Virus record (IMG/VR): IMGVR_UViG_3300009537_000168
Coordinates: 1-24,405 of that record
Direction: 5' to 3' (one strand)
Length of the DNA: 24,405 bases
Origin: a virus
In this document: one piece after another, positions 9,434 through 11,445 of the stretch
How positions within the stretch are numbered: the stretch's first letter is position 1
Layout of the letters: each line of letters starts with the position of its first letter
Translations under genes and position numbers: made by a program
Notes under the pieces: generated by a model
What the model was told of the DNA's origin: nothing
Database searches by the model: none
Seen by the model: the letters and a program-made list of their open reading frames with translations, nothing else

Positions 9434-9462
9434 TTGACAAACGGGAATTAATGTGATAAGCT
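9434..9462 (+). promoter_or_regulatory. Candidate sigma70-type promoter before the capsid gene
   Basis: A perfect -35 hexamer TTGACA (9434-9439) is followed after 17 bases by TAAGCT, a weak -10; GATAAG with an upstream TG (9452-9460) is an alternative. It lies just after the stop of paralogue B and before a structured leader, a sensible place to boost capsid expression. The same 11 bases TTGACAAACGG occur at 44-54. Confidence 0.4.
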
Positions 9463-9565: not shown

Positions 9566-9632
9566 ACGGCCAATTAGTTGCAACGAACGGCCAATCATCA
9601 CGATGTCACAATCGTGTCGGTTGGCCGTTTTT
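9566..9632 (+). terminator. Terminator-like hairpin with a duplicated 5' arm in the capsid leader
   Basis: ACGGCCAA (9587-9594) pairs with TTGGCCGT (9621-9628). Inside, CACGAT (9599-9604) pairs with ATCGTG (9611-9616) around a 6-base loop, and five Ts follow (9628-9632). A second ACGGCCAAT (9566-9574) can compete for the same 3' arm. The hairpin ends only 17 bases before the capsid start, so it may act as an attenuator or as an RNA-structured leader rather than a plain gene-end terminator. Confidence 0.65.
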
Positions 9633-9648
9633 GCGTTCAGGTGCGCTT

Positions 9649-11445
9649 ATGGACGAAAAAAACGAACATCTTGCGGATGACGATTATCTGGTCTGGTACG
9701 GCGATGCAGTCAAGGCGCTCGGAGACGGGCGCGTCGGCGGTTATCTGGTGCGCTTCACTTCGCCGGATGATCCGGACATGGAGGGCGACTACTTCGACGC
9801 CGCAACCGACTTTGGTGAATTGAAAACCTCGGCAGTCTATTACCAGCACGGTATGGACCCGCGTCTCAAGACGCGCAGACTCGGAGTTGCTGAATTGTCA
9901 GAGGACGAATTCGGCGTATGGGCGGAAATGCAACTTAGCCTGCGAGACGAGTACGAAAAGTTTATTTATGACATGACCAAGGCCGGGAAGATGGGATGGT
10001 CATCCGGCACGGCACCGCACCTTGTAGAAAGGGAGCGGTCGGGGAAGTCCTGGCACATCAAACACTGGCCGCTTGGCCTGGATGCGTCATTGACACCGAC
10101 CCCCGCCGAACCACGCAATACAGCAGTATCACTAAAATCGTTGAAATCTTCCGAGCTAGAGGCGTCCGAAAGGTCAAACAATGACGACGACGCGAAGCCC
10201 GCCGAAGTTCAAACTGTAACGGCTCATGTAGATGAGCAACCCAAACACATCGAGTTTACCAAAACTCAGGAGGACATAACCATGTCTGACGAAACCAAAA
10301 CTCCTGATGTGGTCGAGGAACCCATGGAAGCTAAGTTCAAAGCACTCAGCGCCCAGGTAGATCAAATCCTCAAGGCCATCCAGGACAGCCCAAAGCTCGA
10401 GCGCGGCGGGTATTACACCAATGACGGCGGCGCAAAAGACGCCGGGCATAAGTCATTCGGCGACTGGCTGCTCGCAGTCAAGCGCAATGATATGAAGCGC
10501 CTGGGAACGGTCTATGCTCAGAAGGACTTGGGAAAAGACACCGGCTCCGCTGGTGGATACCTGGTCCCCGAGGAATACGCTAATCAGCTTTTACAGATTG
10601 CGACCGAAGCCAGCCCCATTGCTAACCGCGTTCAACGCGTCCCGGTGGGCGTTAATTCCGGCGTGTATCCGGCGCTTGACTACTCAGTCGCGCCGACCGC
10701 GGGCAGCGGACAATCGGCCCTGGCTGCCGGTGTTTCCGCCGCATCGACCGAGGAAAACGCAGCGCTTACTGAGGATGAACCCATCTTTCGTGAGTTGAAT
10801 TGGCGGCTTCACAAAGTCGGCGGCTTCACTGATGTCAGCAATGAGCTGATTGCAGATAGTCCGCAGTCGGTTGAAGCACTGCTTACCTCGCTGTTCTCAA
10901 TCACCATCGCAAACAAAAACGAACGCAACATTATCCGCGGCTCCGGTGCGGGCGAACCGACCGGCATCCTGAATGCTGCATGTGCGATCGGCGTTGCGAC
11001 TGCCACTGATAACGCATTCGCCGAAGCCGACGCGCTGGCAATGTTCAGCCGCTTCAAGCGACTGAGCGCACAACAGCCGGTATGGATCATGCATCCCGGC
11101 GTTATTCCCGACCTCGCCAGCTTCACGGCCAGCAATCAGGACCTGGTTGATTGGCGCGTGGGCGTTAGCGGCAGCCTGTTGGGTTATCCGATCCTGTTCT
11201 CCGAGCACATGCCTCAGGACGACGGGGACGATGTTCTCCTGGCAGACCTCGGTGCTTACCTCTGGTTCCAGAAGGGCGTGCTTGAAATCGCCTTCTCGGA
11301 GCATGTAGGCTTCAAGAGCGATCAGGGTACCTGGCGCTTTGCGCAGCGAAATGACGGCATGGCCTGGTTGAACGCAGCTATCACACTCGCAGATCCGACC
11401 GGCAGCTACACCGTTAGCCCGTTCGTATTCCACAACGACGCCTAA
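9649..11445 (+). CDS. Fused prohead protease / scaffold / major capsid protein (HK97 fold)
   Basis: The 598-residue protein combines two usually separate proteins. Residues 1-165 are an HK97-type prohead protease (U35-like) with H67 in YYQHG, S118/S119 in GWSSGT, and D145 in the LDASLTPTPAEP motif as the likely third residue. Residues 166-260 are a charged, helical delta/scaffold-like linker. From about 295 the HK97 capsid domain follows: GSAGGYLVPEEYANQLLQIA, ASPIANR, then GSGAGEPTGIL and the WIMHPGV segment. An internal ATG at 10282 (M212) has a strong Shine-Dalgarno and would yield a 387-residue scaffold-capsid protein. The ATG at 9649 is favoured by AGGTG 5 bases upstream; an in-frame TTG at 9631 lies in the hairpin tail. 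The protease would free the capsid from itself after assembly. Confidence 0.92.
   Translation: MDEKNEHLADDDYLVWYGDAVKALGDGRVGGYLVRFTSPDDPDMEGDYFDAATDFGELKTSAVYYQHGMDPRLKTRRLGVAELSEDEFGVWAEMQLSLRDEYEKFIYDMTKAGKMGWSSGTAPHLVERERSGKSWHIKHWPLGLDASLTPTPAEPRNTAVSLKSLKSSELEASERSNNDDDAKPAEVQTVTAHVDEQPKHIEFTKTQEDITMSDETKTPDVVEEPMEAKFKALSAQVDQILKAIQDSPKLERGGYYTNDGGAKDAGHKSFGDWLLAVKRNDMKRLGTVYAQKDLGKDTGSAGGYLVPEEYANQLLQIATEASPIANRVQRVPVGVNSGVYPALDYSVAPTAGSGQSALAAGVSAASTEENAALTEDEPIFRELNWRLHKVGGFTDVSNELIADSPQSVEALLTSLFSITIANKNERNIIRGSGAGEPTGILNAACAIGVATATDNAFAEADALAMFSRFKRLSAQQPVWIMHPGVIPDLASFTASNQDLVDWRVGVSGSLLGYPILFSEHMPQDDGDDVLLADLGAYLWFQKGVLEIAFSEHVGFKSDQGTWRFAQRNDGMAWLNAAITLADPTGSYTVSPFVFHNDA
10268..10284 (+). 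promoter_or_regulatory. Strong internal ribosome binding site and start for capsid alone
   Basis: AGGAGGA (10268-10274) stands 7 bases before an in-frame ATG (10282-10284) that begins MSDETKTPDVVEE. It falls exactly at the boundary between the protease and the scaffold/capsid parts. It is the best Shine-Dalgarno in the capsid region, better than the one for the full-length start. Initiation here would produce a nested 387-residue capsid precursor, ending at 11445. Confidence 0.75.

Follow-up and report, generated by a model that had tools for sequence, protein, structure and literature searches.

In an uncultured tailed phage, a prohead protease and an HK97-type major capsid protein share one open reading frame, and a second start codon behind a Shine-Dalgarno (SD) sequence at the border of the two domains most probably allows the capsid precursor to be made without its protease as well. 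We give this explanation of two starts and two products, taken as a whole, a probability of roughly 0.87; gene anatomy and the retention of frame and start among relatives argue for it. The question behind it is how only a few proteases get into a shell built from hundreds of copies of the capsid protein. Fusing protease to capsid seems to impose a 1:1 ratio, and a nested capsid start would resolve this problem. If true, "major capsid" entries of 480-600 aa would be mis-annotated, with a second capsid precursor beginning within them.

The fused gene and its probable internal start

The window, meaning the whole stretch of DNA analysed, is a virus record of 24,405 bases with the usual gene order of terminase, portal, head-tail connector and tail-side genes. 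The features of the fused gene and of the region preceding it are as follows.

9434..9460, + strand: promoter-like TTGACA-15-GATAAG, directly 3′ of the stop of the preceding gene; weak in the window
9580..9634, + strand: strong terminator-like hairpin with a T tract (9628-9632), z -5.2, 15 nt 5′ of the protease start
9649..11445, + strand: protease-capsid fusion, a single open frame of 598 aa from ATG to stop; start context caggtgcgcttATG, weak SD (-6.1 kcal/mol)
9649..10143, + strand: prohead protease domain, S78, T4 gp21-like fold, residues 1-165
9847-9849, + strand: codon of His67
10000-10005, + strand: codons of Ser118/Ser119
10144..10281, + strand: linker, predicted to be disordered; peptide and length poorly conserved
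10268..10274, + strand: internal SD, AGGAGGA, duplex energy -10.3 kcal/mol, 7 nt 5′ of ATG 10282
10282..11445, + strand: nested capsid precursor, 387 aa, beginning at M212 of the fusion
10282..10551, + strand: delta/scaffold-like segment preceding the capsid fold; helix predicted for residues 227-246
10552..11388, + strand: HK97-type capsid domain, PF05065, residues 302-580

The coordinates that the first-pass annotation had assigned to the fusion frame, to the AGGAGGA with its 7-nt spacer (CATAACC) before the in-frame ATG, and to the 387-residue precursor are all exact. About 90 residues with one predicted helix separate M212 from the capsid fold, and by analogy with HK97 this segment is expected to be cleaved off. 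A model of the full-length fusion has a low pTM (0.48) and served solely for the disorder of the linker.

The capsid part is an HK97-type major capsid protein by both PF05065 (E 1.3e-40, 140 bits, cut-off 24.2) and TIGR01554 (E 8.6e-56, 189.7 bits, cut-off 27.5). The protease of the window falls slightly under the Pfam threshold of PF04586 (18.4 bits, cut-off 21, E 0.0025), and 10 of the 11 aligned sequences hit this profile at E up to 1, the best at 1.1e-7. Its AlphaFold2 model (pLDDT 82) finds the T4 prohead protease gp21 as the top solved structure in VIA-align (Z 9.3 over 126 residues), followed by herpesvirus proteases at Z 5-7; the capsid protein of phage Q54 is also among the structural matches, and a plain Foldseek search of the model against the PDB gave no significant match. 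His67 and Ser118/Ser119 are invariant across 51 sequences. The PF04586 matches of the relatives, the predicted fold and the conserved His and Ser together place the protease in the S78, HK97-type class. A ClpP-type protease, as in the single capsid genes of the Gifsy-2/MD8 class, is ruled out by this S78/gp21-like character.

The main ORFs of the window contain 125 in-frame ATGs; 8 of these are preceded by an SD with a duplex energy of -8 or below, and ATG 10282 carries the joint strongest SD. The pattern AGGAGG-N4-9-ATG occurs three times on the two strands of the window, against 0.78 expected. Considered alone, the window is only suggestive of an internal start beyond chance.

Conservation of the internal site among fused relatives

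Relatives were gathered through the protease domain, plus two through the whole protein, and because they were collected via the protease their choice is independent of the internal site. The fusion frame, defined as a protease open into a capsid-sized tail, is retained in 88 of 112 loci, and 70 fused loci are left after removal of near-copies. An in-frame ATG with an SD motif at a start-like distance stands at the border in 64 of these 70, whereas the other two frames give 14 and 1, and equal-size windows elsewhere in the same ORFs give 10%. A strong SD is found at the border in 47 of 70, compared with 0.9% of equal windows elsewhere, and ATGs preceded by an SD amount to 74/187 in frame 0 against 14/206 in the next frame. 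The commonest spacing between SD and ATG is 8-9 nt; the SD is found in two codon phases, with differing peptides.

When codons were shuffled synonymously with the peptide kept, 30.4 of 70 loci were expected to carry the site and 60 did so, under a motif definition slightly narrower than the one giving 64. This null is conservative because the SD itself partly dictates the peptide. SD energies gave a weaker yet significant signal under the same null (combined p 0.001). At 62 of 70 loci the stretch around the internal ATG has less structure than the remaining linker positions, and family-wide it is also less structured than the surroundings of other capsid ATGs or of the protease start. With the relatives included, the internal site is, by sequence comparison, far more than chance. 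The first-pass annotation had proposed a nested capsid start and suggested asking whether relatives keep it while the linker diverges; they do, and what they retain is an internal in-frame ATG with its own SD, as in nested head genes.

The exceptions are few. Locus L049 is fused, has a different linker and no border ATG; in L052 and L059, from the same clade, the ATG is present but no SD precedes it. The site of L112 is weak. L049, L052 and L059 form the only well-supported clade whose fused gene is without an internal SD. Their protease start likewise has little SD, and hosts of this clade may rely less on SD, although the downstream genes of L052 and L059, which do carry SD, are at odds with this.

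Split relatives give a second view of the same border. In most of them the capsid ORF lies within about 20 bases of the protease gene (102 bases in L101) and has its own SD-ATG. The split capsid of L010 begins MEITTETLK, and the fused L004 and L020 begin MEITEE at the internal ATG; the split capsid of L007 shares 84% identity with the capsid portion of the fused L063. Given that split capsids start with their own SD-ATG, in L010 with the MEIT beginning as well, the internal ATG corresponds to the start of a stand-alone capsid gene. A protease-domain tree, quickly made and with many weak branches, needs six changes between the fused and split states, at least three of them forced by well-supported branches.

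Several further observations concern the relatives themselves. Many (L004, L007-L011) carry 50-200 extra residues ahead of the protease, with repeated motifs such as MPDPSEYDDKDKFMEVCIPKVLEDG. Matches in bacterial assemblies (L093-L112) are mostly from Chloroflexota (Anaerolineae), which hints at this phylum as the host of the phage group. In Salinibacter phage 13_1 (L114, 1339-3885) a related protease domain lies towards the C-terminal end of a protein of 849 aa, and a separate 461-aa ORF follows downstream of its gene.

Two proposed products, their ratio and competing readings

From a single mRNA with two in-frame starts and a common stop, initiation at 9649 would give the protease-delta-capsid fusion and initiation at 10282 the delta-capsid precursor without protease. 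Both would co-assemble through their common delta/capsid part, the fusion bringing a tethered protease to the prohead interior and the short form filling the other positions of the shell; once activated, the protease would cut itself loose and then trim the delta segments. The anatomy of the gene, read in the light of the HK97 and T4 pathways, leads us to infer that both starts are used, that the protease is tethered, that cleavage takes place and that the short form may be in excess.

The first-pass annotation had expected a minor fusion and an abundant capsid, with the ratio of protease to capsid fixed by initiation strength. In the window the internal SD is indeed the stronger (-10.3 vs -6.1 kcal/mol), but across the family mean SD energies at the two starts are equal (-8.2 and -8.4, with the next gene alike), bearing in mind that the protease start was picked as the best SD among candidates, a bias in its favour. 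A ratio set by SD strength alone is accordingly rejected as a general rule. Accessibility of the mRNA is higher at the internal start than at the protease start family-wide (0.59 vs 0.47) and lower in the window (0.31 vs 0.50), the latter because CAGGAG can pair with a nearby downstream CTCCTG. Ribosomes translating the fusion would open this pairing, so that coupling of the two starts is possible.

The best surviving alternative, which we still regard as improbable, is that all capsid comes from a self-cutting full fusion and that the internal ATG, a relic from once-separate genes, sees little use. Single capsid genes of the Gifsy-2/MD8 type are assumed to work in this way, fusions are commonly presented as polyproteins that cleave themselves (PMC8306868), and L049 suggests that a fused gene can perhaps manage without a border ATG. 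The record of phage c2, a fusion compared below, notes that the mature capsid protein starts at codon 206, so an internal start is not required there; because this codon lies downstream of both starts, the mature N-terminus does not distinguish the two routes. A relic would be expected to decay, yet SD and ATG persist despite divergence of the linker peptide, and the internal site is selectively unstructured.

A shade less probable again is a separate transcript begun inside the protease gene, in the manner of herpesvirus UL26.5, which would use the internal SD-ATG for a capsid-only product. In 28 of 53 relatives a hairpin lies no more than 45 nt from the start of the protease gene, compared with 6 of 125 starts of other genes; these hairpins look like terminators and could limit full-length transcripts in about half of the family. 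Sigma-70 promoters, however, are not enriched where such a transcript would begin: mean scores in the linker and protease region (7.1 and 7.7 of 12) equal those of codon shuffles, a result that leaves room for phage-specific promoters. The enrichment sits instead upstream of the hairpin, as sites resembling TTGACA-17-TATAAT, frequently with a TG in front of the second box, ahead of the protease gene family-wide. The window shows between 9431 and 9649 the order TTGACA, leader of roughly 150-200 nt, hairpin with T tract and ribosome site, an arrangement that resembles an attenuator or lambda pR′-tR′, which is a late switch.

The least credible reading takes the SD-like word for a site of ribosome pausing, or for a trait of the peptide at the domain border, and not for a start: linkers are indeed rich in Glu/Lys codons with common GAG/GGA words, and shuffles retain the motif in about 43% of loci, but neither pause nor peptide needs an in-frame ATG 8-9 nt downstream, and the surplus is a property of frame 0 and exceeds the peptide-preserving null.

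Comparison with known systems

Protease-capsid fusions are already known from c2, Q54, Nocturne116, thaumarchaeal proviruses, MD8 and Paracoccus phages, and so are nested in-frame scaffold genes (lambda C/Nu3). For a capsid start nested inside fused genes and retained among them we found no description in the open-licence literature, a weak absence. Among named phage genomes, relatives of the whole fusion gave partial matches only, none above 80% of the query.

The Lactococcus fusions c2 (l5), bIL67, Q54 (orf21) and Nocturne116 (ORF18) likewise carry an N-terminal prohead protease and an HK97-type capsid in one ORF, though their sequences are barely alike to that of the window, and a viral scan with the Q54 protein matched Q54 alone. 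Those of c2, Q54 and Nocturne116 have been described as natural prohead protease-capsid fusions without discussion of a nested start (PMC8306868). In c2, bIL67, CHPC967, bIBB14, LG75P1, Q54, Nocturne116 and GE1 the border has an in-frame ATG preceded by an SD or a sequence like it, the motif being weaker in the last three. This ATG is codon 131 of l5 in c2, where the motif is AAAGGAG, and codon 144 of orf21 in Q54; the two c2 products would measure 480 and 350 aa. In the record of eb1 (AF152410) the capsid CDS is annotated from the border ATG, and Pfam PF06673 begins at residue 131 of c2, which is this same ATG. We lean, with some reserve, towards a nested start being general for fused S78 protease-capsid genes, from the Chloroflexota-linked phages to those of Lactococcus, with the protease dose given by the protease-tagged subunits of the shell and c2 always having made two products.

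Two thaumarchaeal proviruses, NCAV2-Pro1 and NitIsl-Pro1, also join a prohead protease domain to their capsid protein (PMC6563490), and differ from the phage of the window in being archaeal. Gifsy-2, Pseudomonas phage MD8 and Paracoccus phages encode protease, scaffold and capsid in a single ORF (PMC8508860, PMC6536676); their protease is of ClpP type, and the Paracoccus phages have a Mu gpT-type capsid domain. MD8-like fusions of ClpP-type protease, scaffold and capsid with an SD-ATG at the protease border occur at L113 (4371-6452), L115 and L172-L195, and RcSwan (L116) has AAGGA 8-9 nt 5′ of an ATG at residue 214. It is possible, judging from these sequences, that they form an independent case of a nested start; we did not count them as such, the border SD-ATG of the non-redundant members lying within a conserved peptide.

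HK97 itself shares the S78-type protease and the delta domain on the capsid N-terminus, and differs in that gp4 and gp5 are two separate adjacent genes, the state which our split relatives resemble. Lambda C/Nu3 shares the in-frame internal start in a protease gene, the common stop and the protease-free product; there, in contrast, it is the scaffold that is nested, the capsid protein has a gene of its own and gpC is a different type of protease. The strict lambda type, a nested scaffold with the capsid encoded elsewhere, thus does not describe our case, in which the nested product includes the capsid domain. Mu I/Z is a nested in-frame arrangement of the lambda kind. The analogy with the nested gene in lambda C drawn in the first-pass annotation is apt, and herpesvirus UL26/UL26.5 is at least as close, with the same protease fold and a nested in-frame product lacking the protease. 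Unlike the capsid nested here, the UL26.5 product is a scaffold and comes from its own transcript.
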